Source of the DNA: Mucilaginibacter sp. PAMB04168
GTDB lineage: Bacteria > Bacteroidota > Bacteroidia > Sphingobacteriales > Sphingobacteriaceae
Length of the DNA: 64,000 nucleotides
Direction of reading: 5' to 3'
Assembly (NCBI RefSeq): GCF_039634365.2
Contig: NZ_CP155079.2
Location: 3,410,001 to 3,474,000 of the forward strand
In this document: in pieces, positions 23,028-29,898 of the stretch
Position numbering within the stretch: position 1 is the first letter of the stretch
How the letters are laid out: each line of letters opens with the position of its first letter
The notes under the pieces: generated by a model
What the model was told of the DNA's origin: nothing
What the model saw: the letters and a program-made list of their open reading frames with translations, nothing else
Database searches by the model: none
Program-made: the position numbers and the translations under genes

Positions 23028-23543
23028 TTACTCATCAAAGTAAGTTCGAACATATGTAATCTTTCCTTTCAAAACACCATTCGGTGAGGTTGGTGTGGTA
23101 ATCAAAAAGGACCACTTCCCGTCTTTAAGGTCATTCGCTTCTTTATCAGATAGTGCGTTTAAAGAAAAAAAGGCACTTGTCAGGCTATCGGTCTTCGGAC
23201 GATTGTTCGCTGTTGTGGTACTAACAAAGATATCCCTAAGTTGAACGTTTTCCTGTCCAACTGCGTTTGGTCCATAAAAACGGGCAGTAACAACTGTAGT
23301 GTCCAAATTTTTCCAGTTTAGCTTGTAATTAAAAACCTTTTGGTTAGCATCATAAACACCGGAAAACGTTGCTGTGCCGGTTGAAGTTCCGGGCGGTGTT
23401 AACTGCGCAGCGTTACCGGTACCCGCAAAAACAAGCTTTCCAAGATCATTTGGCCTGCTGTCGTCAAACTTTTTACAAGAATAGAAGCTTAAGCTGCCAA
23501 GGCAGGTTATGACGTACAAGGCATTCTTCAAACAAATTTTCAT
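23028..23543 (-). CDS. CHRD-domain lipoprotein (locus B)
   Basis: 171 residues with a lipobox ending at C23 (LSFYSCKKFDDS). The mature part resembles the CHRD domain: a QLTPPGTSTGTATFSGVYD strand pair, a KVFNYKLNWKNLDTTVVTARFYGP segment and NGVLKGKITYVR close to the end. CHRD domains are beta-rich modules of unknown ligand in bacterial surface proteins. It is the last gene of locus B, 18 bases after the DUF5017 stop, so it probably sits on the cell surface with the SusC/SusD complex. Function beyond location is not known. Confidence 0.85.
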   Translation of the reverse strand: MKICLKNALYVITCLGSLSFYSCKKFDDSRPNDLGKLVFAGTGNAAQLTPPGTSTGTATFSGVYDANQKVFNYKLNWKNLDTTVVTARFYGPNAVGQENVQLRDIFVSTTTANNRPKTDSLTSAFFSLNALSDKEANDLKDGKWSFLITTPTSPNGVLKGKITYVRTYFDE

Positions 23544-23561: not shown

Positions 23562-24485
23562 TTAGTTGGTAATCGTAAATGTGAATTCCTTAATAACTTC
23601 TGCACTGTTTTCGCTATCCTGATTTTTGGCTACGAAAGTCACCTTGTAAGTACCCGGCTTTTTAAATATATACCTAAAGTCCGTCGGTTTTACAGTAGCG
23701 TTTTTCAAAATCTGTCCATAATCTGATGGAATGGTGTTCAACACAAGTGGTCGGGAAATTGCCCAGTCTTCATCTTTTGCACTGCCGATTGCAGGAGCGT
23801 TGAATGTCAGCGAATTATTGGCAAAATTCCAGGAATTATCAATGTTAGCAACCGAAATGATATTATTCAGTCCCGCACTGTTAACGTTACTTGCCATTGT
23901 ATTAACGGTATCTTTAAAAAAGCTTCGTATCGTCAATGCGGGTGTTGGACCCACTGTCCATTTACGCGACACAGCATTTACAGTTGACATATCGGCTAAA
24001 TACCGAAAGGCTACATAAATCGGCAACGAGCCATTCAACTGATCCTCCAGATGGACATTCCCCGAGGCAACGGCTGTTGTTGTGGTTGCCAATTTCGCAC
24101 GGGAGGATATATCCGTCCAGGTTGCTTTTTGAAGACTTACGATATCACTTCCGCCATTAAAATCTTTAGACACAAGCACCGCAAAATTATTAAGAGAGGC
24201 AGGCTGTGTAGTTGCGCTAGGCGCAGTTGTTGATGTGGAAAAATTCAGGATTACGGAGTCTGGAGCGGCACTAAGGCGTTCCCTGTTCTCATAACGATGG
24301 TTGGGTTCACCCGAGTAAAAGGTAATATAATCCGGGTTTCCGCTGAAAGAGAAATACACGGTGTCTTTAGTTGTCATATTTATTTTCGAAGCCTTTACAT
24401 CAAAGTCCGAAGGGGGAGTTACTTTTACCTTATTGCATGCAGATAGCGCTAGTAATAAAGCAGGCATTATTAAGTATCTTTTCAT
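23562..24485 (-). CDS. DUF5017-type surface lipoprotein (locus B, SusE/SusF position)
   Basis: 307 residues from the ATG at 24485 (an in-frame TTG lies two codons earlier). Lipobox LLLALSACNK. The first domain, FDVKASKINMTTKDTVYFSFSGNPDYITFYSGEPNHRY, is the pattern I associate with DUF5017 proteins. The C-terminal part contains YIFKKPGTYKVTFVAKNQDSEN, a PKD/Ig-like strand pattern. Genes in this place after SusD usually encode surface glycan-binding proteins (SusE/SusF analogues). Carbohydrate binding here is inference from position and lipidation. Confidence 0.82.
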   Translation of the reverse strand: MKRYLIMPALLLALSACNKVKVTPPSDFDVKASKINMTTKDTVYFSFSGNPDYITFYSGEPNHRYENRERLSAAPDSVILNFSTSTTAPSATTQPASLNNFAVLVSKDFNGGSDIVSLQKATWTDISSRAKLATTTTAVASGNVHLEDQLNGSLPIYVAFRYLADMSTVNAVSRKWTVGPTPALTIRSFFKDTVNTMASNVNSAGLNNIISVANIDNSWNFANNSLTFNAPAIGSAKDEDWAISRPLVLNTIPSDYGQILKNATVKPTDFRYIFKKPGTYKVTFVAKNQDSENSAEVIKEFTFTITN

Positions 24486-24499
24486 GTTCAAGAAGTGAA

Positions 24500-26509
24500 T
24501 TAATAACCTGGATTCTGTTTTATCTTTTTGTTAAGTAGAATTTCATTTTGAGGAATCGGCCATAAAATATCTTTGGAGCCTATGTTAGTACCGGGAGCGG
24601 CTGCAGCACCAATAACATCGGCAGCTGTAATTTCAGTAGCCATTGGCGGTATTGGCATATTCCATTTTGGGTTTGACGATCCTGCTATATCCACCAACAA
24701 GCTCTGAACCGTTGGTACAAATATTCCCCAGCGCTTAAGGTCAGACTTACGCAGTGCTTCAAATGCCAGTTCAAGGTAGCGTTCGTTTTGAACAGCTATG
24801 CGAAAATCGTCTTTACTCAGACCCTGCGTCAAATCACCGGTGGTTACTGTGGTTAAATTTGCGGTCGCAGTAGCCTGCACTCCGGCATAAGTGAATGTGG
24901 CACCGGTTGTTGCGGGGTTAGATGCGCCCGAAGCTTGTGCGGGTGGAGTTGCAGTTGAAACGCCGGCTTTGGTTACTGTATACAGTTTTCCGGCATTGGT
25001 TACTTGAGTGTTGAGTGCATAGTTTGTATTTGCTGCCCAAGGCGTACCAATTATGACGGTAGGTGCTGTAATATAACCGCTACCGGCATTAGTTACCGAA
25101 ATCAGGCTTACAGCGCCCGAGGTTAAGGTGCTTACTGCAGTAGCATTACCTGTGGAAAAATTAACCGCCGGAGCAGTTGTATAGCCAGAGCCTGCGTTAG
25201 TGATGGTAAAGTTATATATTATAGGGGTTTTACTGTATGCCCTTCTGCGTACCTGATTGATGGCGTTGTAGGCTTCTGCGGTTGGCCCGTTAAGCTCATT
25301 CTCAGCTTCGGCATACATTAGCAGCACATCCGAATAACGCAACATAGGGAAATTCACCTGAGATGTTGTCTGCGTTAAACGGCTAACGTCTGGTTCGTAC
25401 TCCCTGTTCCATTTACTAATCTGCCTTGACCAAATCTGATTGGACGTATAGTAAGTTTTGTTTAAACCGGCCCAACCATAACTTGATAAATTCCAATCTC
25501 TTCTCAGGTCGCCCGGCTGGTAGGAAACATATAAGCGAGGGTATGCCCTTACGTAACCGTAACTATAGCCATCATAAACAACAGGTGAGCCGCTCCCGGT
25601 AGATTTGCCAATGTTCATGAACACATTGAACTGCCCTCCTGCTGAAACCGCTCCGGTAGCATTTTGATTGAACCCAATTTCCCAGATATTTTCCTGGTTA
25701 TAGCGATTTTGAATCTCATCAAGAAAGACCTGCTGATAGGAAGAAAGTAAGGTATGCTGCCTTGATTCGATCACTTTTGCCGCCCACTTTTTTGCATCAG
25801 CAAAACGTTTGGTATCGTTCACCGGATTTCCAGCAGCATAAAGGCACACACGTGCAAGTATTCCTTCAACTGCGGTGACGGAAATTTTTTCTGAATAGCC
25901 TATAGAAGCGAATGTTTGATCGGTAAGCATTCCTTCTGCTGCAGTCATATCGCTAATGATCTGGTCATAAACCAACTTTACAGGCGTACGTTCAATTTGC
26001 CCTTCCGAGGGATCCTGGGTAGCATGAACCATGAGGGGCACATCCCCGTACCACTGTGCAAGCAGGAAGTAATAATAACCTCGCAAAAACAAGGCTTCTC
26101 CTTTTGCCTTTCTTACGGTAGCGGCGCTTACTGTTCCCGATGCAGCGGACACATCTATGTTGTCTAACAAACTGTTGCAATAATTGATTGATTGGTAGCA
26201 AAGTCGCCAAAACGTGCCTATATCACCATCAGTAGAAGGGACAATCGTATAGCTGTAGTTATTGTAACCGTAGTTAAGATTATAAAAATAAGTTTCGTCG
26301 GTACCCAGTGTAAGGCGGGTTGCATAAAATGAGCCATACAATGTACTGGCTCTTAAGTTAAAATACAGCCCTGCCAAAGCAGCCCTAACCTGCGCTTCGG
26401 AAGAATAAGAAGTCTGAGGTACCAATGCCCCTGTAGGTACTGTGTCAAGCACCTTTTTACATGATGTAAAAGGCAATATGATCATTATGTATATGAGTAT
26501 CTTTTTCAT
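24500..26509 (-). CDS. SusD/RagB family lipoprotein with an inserted repeat/CBM-like domain (locus B)
   Basis: 669 residues, lipobox ending at C17. The SusD frame is normal on both sides: GEALFLRGYYYFLLAQWYGDVPL (137-159), RYSDVLLMYAEAENELNG (391-408), INQVRRRAY (417-425), then LTQGLSKDDFRIAVQNERYLELAFE (560-584) and a C-terminal IKQNPGY. Between residues about 427 and 559 lies an extra segment of about 130 residues that ordinary SusD proteins lack. It holds two copies of an NAGSGYxTAPxV repeat and a W-AANTNYALNTQV-NAGKLYTV stretch resembling CBM5/12-like or tail-fibre modules. The frame is open through it and composition is similar, so it is not a sequencing frameshift. Eight bases separate it from the SusC stop. 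Confidence 0.95.
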   Translation of the reverse strand: MKKILIYIMIILPFTSCKKVLDTVPTGALVPQTSYSSEAQVRAALAGLYFNLRASTLYGSFYATRLTLGTDETYFYNLNYGYNNYSYTIVPSTDGDIGTFWRLCYQSINYCNSLLDNIDVSAASGTVSAATVRKAKGEALFLRGYYYFLLAQWYGDVPLMVHATQDPSEGQIERTPVKLVYDQIISDMTAAEGMLTDQTFASIGYSEKISVTAVEGILARVCLYAAGNPVNDTKRFADAKKWAAKVIESRQHTLLSSYQQVFLDEIQNRYNQENIWEIGFNQNATGAVSAGGQFNVFMNIGKSTGSGSPVVYDGYSYGYVRAYPRLYVSYQPGDLRRDWNLSSYGWAGLNKTYYTSNQIWSRQISKWNREYEPDVSRLTQTTSQVNFPMLRYSDVLLMYAEAENELNGPTAEAYNAINQVRRRAYSKTPIIYNFTITNAGSGYTTAPAVNFSTGNATAVSTLTSGAVSLISVTNAGSGYITAPTVIIGTPWAANTNYALNTQVTNAGKLYTVTKAGVSTATPPAQASGASNPATTGATFTYAGVQATATANLTTVTTGDLTQGLSKDDFRIAVQNERYLELAFEALRKSDLKRWGIFVPTVQSLLVDIAGSSNPKWNMPIPPMATEITAADVIGAAAAPGTNIGSKDILWPIPQNEILLNKKIKQNPGY
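24833..25231 (-). other. Extra domain inserted in SusD
   Basis: Codes for residues 427-559 of the SusD protein. Two repeats, NAGSGYTTAPAV (438-449) and NAGSGYITAPTV (474-485), are followed by PWAANTNYALNTQV (490-503) and GKLYTVTKAG (507-516), then a TTGATFTYAG strand. The W..N..Y..G..V..GKLY pattern is reminiscent of small CBM5/12-like sugar-binding modules; the NAGSGY repeats are common in phage tail and adhesin proteins. The insertion site is the loop between the last TPR helix and the LSKDDFR helix. Confidence 0.7.
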
Positions 26510-26517
26510 TATGGGTC

Positions 26518-29500
26518 TTATAAGGTTAGGTTAGCGCCAAAGGTTAATACTCGCGTTCTTGGATATGGAGAGAAATCGAATCCAGGGGCTAAGTTGTTGC
26601 CGGCATTCGTGCTGACCTCCGGATCAGGTCCGCTATATTTGGTAAACGTTAGCAAATTTTGTCCCGACAGAGAAAACCGAAGATTGTTGATATGCAAGCG
26701 CGAAAGCATTTTCCTAGGTAAATTATAACCGATTGAAACGGTTTTCAGACGTAAGTAAGAAGCGTCTTCAATGATGCGGGTCGAATATTGTCTCAGTCCG
26801 CCAGTATTCGCGTTTGCGCGCGGGTATTCATTGGTCGGGTTAGTCGGTGTCCATCTGTTAACATAGGAAGCGAACTGATTGACATTTACGCTACCTAAGT
26901 TTGTTGTTGGAGAATTTCCGGATTGGGGTGCGTTGGTATTCCCTTCAAACTTAAGTTTATTGGCGTTCATCACCTGGTTTCCATATGACCATTGAAGGAA
27001 TACGTTCAAGTCAAAATTTTTGTAGGAGAAGTTGTTAGAAAAGCCGCCGTAGTGTAGCGGATAAGGATTACCAATTACCGTGTAATCATCACCGTTGATC
27101 AATCCGTCTCCGTTTATGTCTTTGTATTTAGGATCGCCTGGTTGAACAACCAATGACTGATTTGTTTGTGGGCTTGCCAGTGTATTTTTGCCGGCGTAAT
27201 AAGGAATGCCTTCTTTGAGCACGTAATAAAATCCGGCTGTTCCGTTCGGAATCTTGTAAAAGTCGTTCAGTTGGTATAAACCGTCAGCAACATAGCCGTA
27301 GAACTGCGCCACGGGCCGGCCAATTTTTGCAATATAATTGGGCGTCGTCATGGCAGACTCAAAGCTCCTTGTTGTTAACCTCGATTCCTCTCCTCCCGTT
27401 AACTCCAGTACCCTGTTCCTGTTAAATGAAATATTAAAGCTACTACTCCAGGTAAAATTCTTTTTACTGATGTTTACGGTTGCCAGCGTAAATTCAAGAC
27501 CTTCGTTACTTACGCTGCCCACATTTTGAAAAGCCGTTGTAAACCCTGTACTGTAAGGCATTGCAGCACTCAAAAGAAGATTTTTGGTGATACGTTTATA
27601 ATAATCGGTCTCAAAGTTCAATCGACCTTTAAACAATGAAAAATTAATGCCCAGGTCTGATTCATACGTAGTTTCCCATTTCAAATTATAGTTAGACATT
27701 GTCTGTACGGTTGAGCCATAAACATTCTGATCGTTATAAGAATAGTAAATGTTGCTGCCTGTATTAATTTGGGATAGGTAAGCAAAATCAGCTACCCGGT
27801 TGTTGCCGATCACACCATAACTAAAACGAATCTTGGCATCGTCAATGAACGAGTACTTTTTCATGAAATTCTCACCACTGAAACGCCAGGCTAAAGCACC
27901 TGAAGGGAAATACCCCCATCTGTTATCCTTGTAAAATTTGGAAGATCCGTCGGCTCTGAAGTTGGCAGTGAACAAGTAGTTTTTGCGGTATGTGTAATTT
28001 AATCTTCCATAGTAGGATTGTAACGCACTCAGGGAAGAAGAAGAACTCACTCTGTAGGGGGTGCCCTGTCCCAGCCCGTTAATCCCCAACGATTCGTTCG
28101 GTAAATTTGTTGCAGAAAAGCCGTTACCGCTGTTCTTACTGGTTTGCGAGCTATAACCTATTAATGCCGAAAGGATATTATTTTGATTAAAATTTTTGGA
28201 GTAAGAAAGTGTATTCTCATTAATAAAACTAATTGACTTCCCTGCAGATGTGCTGCCGTTAACCCCGAAAGCAGCACCGGCAGCTGTTAACGGGCTGCCG
28301 GACTGTGTTCGGGAATTGTAAAAGGTGTTGGTAAGTGAGTTCGTTAAATTAATTCCGGCAGTTACACGAAGCTGCAAGCCAGGAATAATCTTATATTCAA
28401 GATAAGAGTTACCGGTTAGCGTGTTAGCTAAGCGGTCATTAATCACATTGCTTGTGTTAATGTAAGGATTAATGGATGAGTTGCCACCAGGCAGGCCGCC
28501 ATCCTCGTTATTATCGACCAAGTCATTGTAAATAAAGTTTTCATCAAACAGGCCCGAACTCAGTACCGGGCGGTAGCTCCAAATGTTATACATGAGGTTG
28601 AATGCGGCCAAGTTTTGCCCGTTTCCTGTTGGATTGGCTTGAACCGAAGGAATGGATCCATAAGATTTGGTATCGGCGTAGTTGGTATTGATACCAATCT
28701 TCAGCTTATCATTAATTTCCTGATCAAGAACAATCCGCGCCTGATAACGCTTGAAACCACTTTTAATGATCAAACCAGCCTGGTCGGCATAGGAGGCAGA
28801 AACAGCGTAAGACGTTTTACCTGATCTTCCGGTAAGAGACACGTTATGATTTTGGAATGCAGGCAGCTTATTGAACATGATATCCTGCCAGTTTATGGTT
28901 TGAGCATTTTTGTAACTGTCCAGCGTTTTTCCATTGCGGAAGTATACATAGCTGGTGAAATAAGGGTTAATATCATTCTGAAGTTTTACAAACTCATATG
29001 CATCCATCAGCTTCACATTATTAATAGATTTTTGAAATCCACTATTGGTAGAAAATGTTAGTTGCGGGATGCCAGAGGTGCCTTTTTTAGTCGTAATTAA
29101 AATAACTCCATTAGAACCGCGGGCACCATAAATTGCTGTAGCAGAGGCATCTTTTAAAACATCGATGGAGGCGATATCAGCCGGATTGATGGAATTGAAG
29201 TTGGCATCTTCCTGAGGAAAACCATCAATTACGTAAAGCGGAGCCGAGGATTGCGACACCGAACCCACTCCCCGTACAAGTATCTCTGCATTAGCGCCCG
29301 GTTGGCCATCATTTGATGTGACCTGTACACCTGCAATGCGCCCTGCCAACGCTCCGTCAACTGAAGTCACGGCAGCTTTTTGAATATCTTTCATGTTTAC
29401 GGAACCCACAGAACCTGTTAGGTCCCTTTTTTTTGACGTTCCATAACCAATAACAACCACATCATTGAGGTCATTAGCACTTGATTTCATGATAACGTCT

Positions 29501-29823
29501 ATCGAATTGTTGGATCCAATGGGTATCTCCCTATTTTCATACCCCACAAACGTGAATACCAGCACTGCATTCCTATTTGGAGCAGAGATAGAATAATTGC
29601 CTTTAGCATCTGTACGAGTGGCGGTTCGGGTTGTTTTCAGGGTAACGGTCACACCAGCCATTGTACCCGTCTCGTCAGAAACGGTACCTTTAATAATGAT
29701 AGCTTGCGAAAAAGCGGGCGAGCAAATGACGATGAAAGCACAGACTAACAATAGTATTTGCCACGTGACCGGGGTAGAAATAAAGATGCGACTGGTTAAA
29801 GCAAAAGTAGAACTTTGTTTCAT
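26518..29823 (-). CDS. SusC/RagA family TonB-dependent transporter (locus B)
   Basis: 1101 residues from the ATG at 29823 (a TTG one codon earlier is unlikely). A long N-terminal region with signal segment WQILLLVCAFIVICSPAFSQ, a carboxypeptidase-regulatory-like domain (IIKGTVSDETGTMAGVTVTL), the signature VVVIGYGTSKKRDLTG, plug end AIYGARGSNGVILITTKKG, and a barrel ending VLTFGANLTL. First gene of locus B. A TAATTTTG -7 box (29906-29899) and a LacI-type operator (29910-29925) lie 76-102 bases upstream, with a second operator at 30045-30060. Hence transcription is probably controlled by the LacI-family protein encoded at 55762. Confidence 0.96.
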   Translation of the reverse strand: MKQSSTFALTSRIFISTPVTWQILLLVCAFIVICSPAFSQAIIIKGTVSDETGTMAGVTVTLKTTRTATRTDAKGNYSISAPNRNAVLVFTFVGYENREIPIGSNNSIDVIMKSSANDLNDVVVIGYGTSKKRDLTGSVGSVNMKDIQKAAVTSVDGALAGRIAGVQVTSNDGQPGANAEILVRGVGSVSQSSAPLYVIDGFPQEDANFNSINPADIASIDVLKDASATAIYGARGSNGVILITTKKGTSGIPQLTFSTNSGFQKSINNVKLMDAYEFVKLQNDINPYFTSYVYFRNGKTLDSYKNAQTINWQDIMFNKLPAFQNHNVSLTGRSGKTSYAVSASYADQAGLIIKSGFKRYQARIVLDQEINDKLKIGINTNYADTKSYGSIPSVQANPTGNGQNLAAFNLMYNIWSYRPVLSSGLFDENFIYNDLVDNNEDGGLPGGNSSINPYINTSNVINDRLANTLTGNSYLEYKIIPGLQLRVTAGINLTNSLTNTFYNSRTQSGSPLTAAGAAFGVNGSTSAGKSISFINENTLSYSKNFNQNNILSALIGYSSQTSKNSGNGFSATNLPNESLGINGLGQGTPYRVSSSSSLSALQSYYGRLNYTYRKNYLFTANFRADGSSKFYKDNRWGYFPSGALAWRFSGENFMKKYSFIDDAKIRFSYGVIGNNRVADFAYLSQINTGSNIYYSYNDQNVYGSTVQTMSNYNLKWETTYESDLGINFSLFKGRLNFETDYYKRITKNLLLSAAMPYSTGFTTAFQNVGSVSNEGLEFTLATVNISKKNFTWSSSFNISFNRNRVLELTGGEESRLTTRSFESAMTTPNYIAKIGRPVAQFYGYVADGLYQLNDFYKIPNGTAGFYYVLKEGIPYYAGKNTLASPQTNQSLVVQPGDPKYKDINGDGLINGDDYTVIGNPYPLHYGGFSNNFSYKNFDLNVFLQWSYGNQVMNANKLKFEGNTNAPQSGNSPTTNLGSVNVNQFASYVNRWTPTNPTNEYPRANANTGGLRQYSTRIIEDASYLRLKTVSIGYNLPRKMLSRLHINNLRFSLSGQNLLTFTKYSGPDPEVSTNAGNNLAPGFDFSPYPRTRVLTFGANLTL

Positions 29824-29898
29824 CAATGTGTGGTTAGGATTAATTGGAATTATTCTTTAAGTGGATTTGAGATCGACTTTAAATTTAGGTTAACTGCC

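Follow-up and report, generated by a model that had tools for sequence, protein, structure and literature searches.

A SusD lid is commonly regarded as a single compact domain for ligand capture. The available text of PMC2954216 describes the BT_3984 SusD, in which TPR4 lies in the C-terminal half; H6, TPR2, H10, H24, and H25 are proposed as the face that contacts SusC, and the variable TPRs, including H20 of TPR4, are suggested as binding sites for the partners that vary from locus to locus. A sharing of domains between Bacteroidota and their phages has been described for BACON, which is presented in the available part of PMC6949934 as a putative carbohydrate-binding domain of Bacteroidetes proteins and of crAss-like phage tail proteins, single copies of which move horizontally between Bacteroidota and their phages. 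In the window, that is, the whole stretch of 64,000 nucleotides that was analysed, a SusD-like lid carries an inserted module whose relatives are found in virion proteins of tailed phages.

Results

The susD-like gene (24500–26509, minus strand) encodes a lipoprotein lid of 669 amino acids. Its assignment to SusD/RagB is given by the Pfam families SusD_RagB (E 5e-36; 125.2 bits against a cut-off of 23.1) and SusD-like_3 (E 4e-29; 102.6 bits against 27), and by the 32 solved SusD sequences that matched its core in a PDB sequence search. The gene lies downstream of, and adjoins, that of a SusC-like TonB-dependent transporter (26518–29826, minus strand; Pfam Plug and CarbopepD_reg_2), the partner of the lid, which is the genomic context of a SusD/RagB protein. 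Directly downstream of the susD-like gene is that of a DUF5017 protein (23562–24491, minus strand; E 2e-43), a probable surface partner of the lid, and a CHRD protein (23028–23543, minus strand) is encoded just after this SusCD–DUF5017 set. The enzymes tested near the susD-like gene in the window are of the GH28, GH43, GH97, and GH3 types, and a hybrid sensor is also present.

The insert comprises residues ~427–560 of the lid, the originally flagged segment (24833–25231) corresponding to residues 427–559. As the original prediction had placed it, the inserted domain stands between two C-terminal helices, which in the AlphaFold2 model comprise residues 411–424 and 566–587. Two helices, at residues 392–407 and 411–424 (25238–25336, minus strand), are found just ahead of the insert in the AlphaFold2 secondary structure, and the helix of residues 566–587 (24749–24814, minus strand) follows it. 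On comparison with the available description in PMC2954216, the helices of residues 392–424 are probably the fourth TPR, with the insert hanging off that end. Solved-SusD matches that start N-terminally (3ihv, 3otn, 9sje, and others) end at query residues 422–435, and four related SusDs (L066, L067, L068, and L072; the first two from the same genome) have a short loop at this site, which together indicate that the segment is an insertion. It is not a chance sequence, because another SusD in this genome carries a segment 49% identical to it at the same site, and 48 of the 301 genomes of the family give a match to it at E ≤ 1e-3.

Of the 134 residues of the insert, only 4 are charged, and Thr and Ala are abundant. 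Its G+C content is mildly unusual (0.483 against 0.439 in the flanks, with about 5% of the window pieces of the same length being equally high). A search for a trace of the insertion event found no common word of ≥8 bases between the two insert junctions, and the NCBIfam search named no family within the insert.

Anatomy and predicted fold of the module

The two NAGSGY repeats on which the original prediction was based are present, starting at residues 438 and 474, as are W491 and the GKLY motif (residues 507–510). The W/GKLY part does not stand beside the repeats, which corrects the original description. Comparison with SusDs that carry only GSGY repeats reveals that the 'ATATANL' strand after the W/GKLY part continues the second repeat, and the W/GKLY part is therefore nested inside repeat 2. 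The module, with predicted strands at residues 429–554 (24848–25225, minus strand, as are its parts), thus consists of GSGY repeat 1 (residues 429–463; 25121–25225), recognised from the sequence and from PHROGs virion hits; the N-terminal part of repeat 2 (residues 464–488; 25046–25120), delimited by alignments A1 and A4; a nested subdomain of CBM5/12 fold (residues 489–545; 24875–25045), assigned by fold matches to 7eea and to chitin-binding domains; and the resumed repeat 2 (residues 546–554; 24848–24874), delimited by the comparison with GSGY-only SusDs. The same nested order, a GSGY repeat followed by a CBM-fold domain between PTVxxG and the ATAT strand, is found in alignments A2 and A4 and in phage proteins.

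The AlphaFold2 model of residues 426–571, computed with 29 relatives, is all-beta with a mean pLDDT of 90.9 and a pTM of 0.81. The insert is thus predicted to fold as a separate, autonomous domain, and not as part of the normal SusD core, which the original prediction had named as the outcome that would speak against it. The whole-protein model gives residues 431–550 block pLDDT values of 78–96, with a poor SusD core (mean 57.7). Because a scan of viral contigs found no SusD cores, the alignment behind the whole-protein model was shallow and its core was not used; with a core of this quality, the position of the module relative to SusC cannot be read from the model.

Relatives in phages and among solved structures

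A tblastn search against phages matched 331 records, mostly of cyanophages and mainly over the GSGY part, and phage MW202796.1 showed the full nested build with the same junction as the SusD module. Scans of IMG/VR for the nested module yielded 5 loci at first and then 91 phage loci, 80 of which were kept; the module profile matched 113 open frames on IMG/VR loci, partial matches included. Nine phage proteins were tested against PHROGs and were assigned to tail sheath (two; family 23), baseplate wedge (two; family 438), major tail (one; family 3575), and head closure Hc3 (four; family 578). The phages tested thus carry the module in unrelated virion proteins. In alignment A4, the 28 phage rows are 34–51% identical to the insert. 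The viral BFVD model I3ULP6 fits the whole module (TMq 0.75, rmsd 1.3, 120 columns), and the structure search of viral models over the whole module reached E values down to 2e-9. The likeness of the SusD insert to phage virion modules is true homology, and this link to virions is the surprising part of the finding.

Tail sheath proteins with a GSGY and CBM-fold insertion were observed at L142, L143, L144, L145, and L230. In L143 (3689–5986), whose identity as a tail sheath protein is backed by Pfam, the insertion occupies residues 100–239 of the open frame.

The sequence search of solved structures with the insert alone matched no chain, and the module profile was needed to reach 7eea (E 2e-6). 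This receptor-binding domain of the Pam1 cyanophage tailspike is the best solved structure (Z 10.5, rmsd 1.2 over 59 residues); its Foldseek E value is 0.04, and no solved structure fell below 0.001. The original resemblance to tail-fibre modules is borne out by this match together with the homology to virion modules. In VIA-align, chitin-binding domains of chitinases and deacetylases (ChiB, ChiC, ChiA1, and the deacetylases) were superposed with Z values of 5.1–7.2 and an rmsd of 1.4–2.7 over 44–53 residues, which gives the nested part a CBM5/12 fold, where a Z value below 8 may reflect no more than a common arrangement. The Pfam cut-off for CBM_5_12 (PF02839), 26.2 bits, was reached neither by the whole protein (15.9 bits) nor by the insert alone (19.3 bits, E 0.0012). 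The exposed Trp of chitin binding is presumably W687 of ChiA1, its mapping onto the module being partly assumed. Trp, Phe, or Tyr was sought in the corresponding region, residues 514–534, and was absent here and in 20 of the 22 SusD modules. The label 'CBM-like' originally given to the insert therefore holds for the fold of the nested part and not for the family profile or for the binding residue.

Distribution among SusD proteins

The genome holds 60 SusD frames (61 PF07980 matches, two of which share one frame), and a search with the insert found two places, both SusD. The 48 matching genomes of the family are in part accounted for by forms with GSGY repeats alone and by a small number of proteins other than SusD (L031, L085, and L084). 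In the survey of the class, 10 of 395 genomes matched at E ≤ 1e-6, a threshold at which short forms may escape; the full SusD module was found outside the family once, in genome G436, and otherwise in the present genome. The remaining matches are to different proteins, most of them large and secreted, which contain GSGY repeats and in some cases the nested part as well. In three secreted proteins of other Bacteroidia families (L152, L153, and L155), a CBM-like segment comes after a GSGY strand, and this appears to be the same composite in a non-SusD setting.

Among 123 related SusDs, the loop was empty in 57, held GSGY repeats only in 43, the full module in 22, and a LamG-like domain in one, counts that are biased towards inserts since many rows came from the insert search. 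The core search by itself led to 85 rows, with 52 empty, 26 GSGY-only, 6 full, and 1 LamG loops, where the 6 is an underestimate because full-module rows already present under other identifiers were removed as duplicates. The state was called from the loop length and the module profile, a few 'short' rows having weak scores (L303 and L313) or no score (L315, called by eye). The 123 were taken from 178 distinct frames by dropping those with less than 34% identity to the core of the window's SusD or without a C-terminal match, four named exceptions being kept despite an identity below 34%. Since 57 of the 123 relatives have no insert, it is dispensable.

The claim that such additions are rare in SusDs thus stands for this genome, with 2 of 60 frames, and fails for the subfamily, in which 66 of the 123 sampled carry some loop insert under insert-biased sampling. 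These 66, together with the three nearest SusD relatives, all of which carry the same module, bring the counter-argument foreseen in the original prediction, a segment common to most close homologues, about halfway to being true. A link between the module and the DUF5017 neighbour was considered and rejected, since the neighbour is present in all three common loop states.

One SusD (L279; G026:C1:1140500-1145200, frame at -1472) has a LamG/concanavalin-like domain of ~200 residues in the same loop, with Laminin_G_2 above its cut-off and Laminin_G_3 slightly under. What recurs is therefore an extra beta domain at one site. In another SusD (L071; G312:C130, 1090–3006), GSGY repeats occupy a different loop, ahead of YPTIYDRCIGKWRREYE, and the usual loop is empty. 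The SusD loop is a recurrent landing site, at which modules have been gained, lost, or swapped.

History of the module and the core

The tree of the 123 SusDs requires a minimum of 25 loop-state changes, and constraining the 22 full-module cores to one clade cost 506 log units and was rejected (AU p 4.8e-51). In the module tree, which includes 64 phage modules left after filters for score, coverage, and near-copies, all 22 SusD modules are on one side of a branch with an SH-aLRT of 84, a moderate support for grouping by host type in a tree of 133 columns with many open forks. The nearest to them are the sheath modules of L142, L143, and L145 (support 92), against 61 other phage modules. The SusD modules are also marked by a two-residue insertion at 535–536 (21 of 22, against none of the 64 phage modules) and by F539 (22 of 22, against 5 of 64).

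Imposing the topology of the SusD core on the modules was rejected (AU p 0.009). In 177 of 231 pairs, identity is higher between the modules than between the cores. The two identities correlate (Spearman 0.70), which indicates that part of the module history is vertical. From these sequence comparisons, we read the history as follows: the full module entered the SusDs mainly once and was then mostly inherited vertically, with a degree of exchange among susD genes and numerous losses. The phage pool is the more diverse, which makes a phage origin likely, and phages were probably the donor pool.

Discussion

The role that we favour, at about even confidence, is that of an accessory surface-adhesion cassette on the SusD lid. 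The virion-type decoration module occupies the loop after the last TPR helix pair and would be displayed outwards, away from the proposed SusC-contacting face; because the core model is poor (pLDDT 57.7), this orientation leans on the reading of another SusD in the available text of PMC2954216. There, the module may serve as an additional adhesion surface that keeps a surface partner, such as a polysaccharide or the matrix, close to the transporter, much as similar modules probably aid the sticking of virions to surfaces. The adhesive role is suggested by the company of the module on virion surfaces, by the LamG domain as its alternative in the same loop, and by its fold. A wider form of this reading, in which the loop of the SusD subfamily is a docking site and lids and tailed-phage virions draw on one horizontally moving pool of adhesion modules as the same sticking device, is put forward tentatively, as somewhat doubtful.

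The module could instead be a protein-docking element or spacer, which would support the lid or hold partner lipoproteins (DUF5017, glycoside hydrolases) in position, with no binding of glycans. The proposal in the available text of PMC2954216 that variable TPRs, including TPR4, bind locus partners would fit such a role, as would the nested CBM fold without the expected aromatic residue in 20 of the 22 SusD modules and the scarcity of charged residues (4 of 134). However, a DUF5017-like neighbour accompanies every common loop state (full, 18 of 22; GSGY only, 35 of 43; empty, 43 of the 56 examined), and we regard this role as unlikely, though worth keeping in view. The patchy presence of the module, with its 25 or more state changes over 123 SusDs, and the occurrence of the same domain in unrelated virion proteins, of GSGY repeats in large secreted Bacteroidia proteins, and once of such repeats in a different SusD loop (L071) would suit a mobile passenger that is nearly neutral, in which case a rapidly spreading domain would be tolerated in a permissive loop without selection for any role in SusD. 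A passenger would hardly be expected to keep G476, Y479, Y510, G516, P523, G528, and F539 identical in 22 of 22 SusD modules, nor to have almost all of its copies in one loop, at the site where a LamG-like domain is also placed, and this reading is improbable.

A working CBM5/12 domain that binds chitin or GlcNAc and widens the ligand range of the lid is suggested by the fold, which is like those of the ChiB, ChiC, ChiA1, and deacetylase domains (Z 5–7), and by the weak CBM_5_12 match of the insert alone (E 0.0012). With scores of 15.9 and 19.3 against a cut-off of 26.2 bits, no aromatic residue at the position that we take to be that of W687, and GH28, GH43, GH97, and GH3 types but no chitinases among the nearby enzymes tested, this function is very improbable. 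Scarcely any weight is given to a phage-facing role, in which the module would act as a decoy or mask at a surface receptor by imitating virion adhesion or blocking it; the nearest non-SusD modules are indeed on phage tails, but no prophage copy was found in the genome, and both of its module places are SusD.

The reading as an adhesion cassette can be set against five known systems. With SusD/RagB lids (PF07980, PF14322), the protein shares the core domains, the lipoprotein start, the pairing with SusC, and the position in a polysaccharide locus, and it differs in that a virion-type module of 130 residues follows the C-terminal TPR helices. Text searches of the literature on SusD insertions, extra domains, and phages, within a scope mostly of journals other than subscription ones, returned no report of virion modules in SusD, and the lone match for SusD with tail sheath concerns vesicles. 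BACON is the closest precedent, as a different named domain for which the available part of PMC6949934 describes no SusD insertion. If the adhesion reading is true, a swappable outer loop (virion-type or LamG-type) would add a second, modular surface-binding layer to glycan uptake, and the connection of host surface proteins with the decoration of phage tails would be open to testing beyond BACON, with the module-free relatives as natural controls.

Compared with CBM5/12 domains (PF02839), the nested subdomain has the same fold, whereas the profile cut-off is not reached and the Trp presumed to bind chitin is missing. The Pam1 tailspike receptor-binding domain (7eea) matches the nested subdomain and differs as a tailspike, with the match lying mainly in the nested part. 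The phage virion modules of GSGY repeats and CBM5/12 fold are alike in nested order, junction, identity (34–51%), and fold; the difference is that the module here belongs to a host protein, and that the SusD copies carry the 535–536 insertion and F539.
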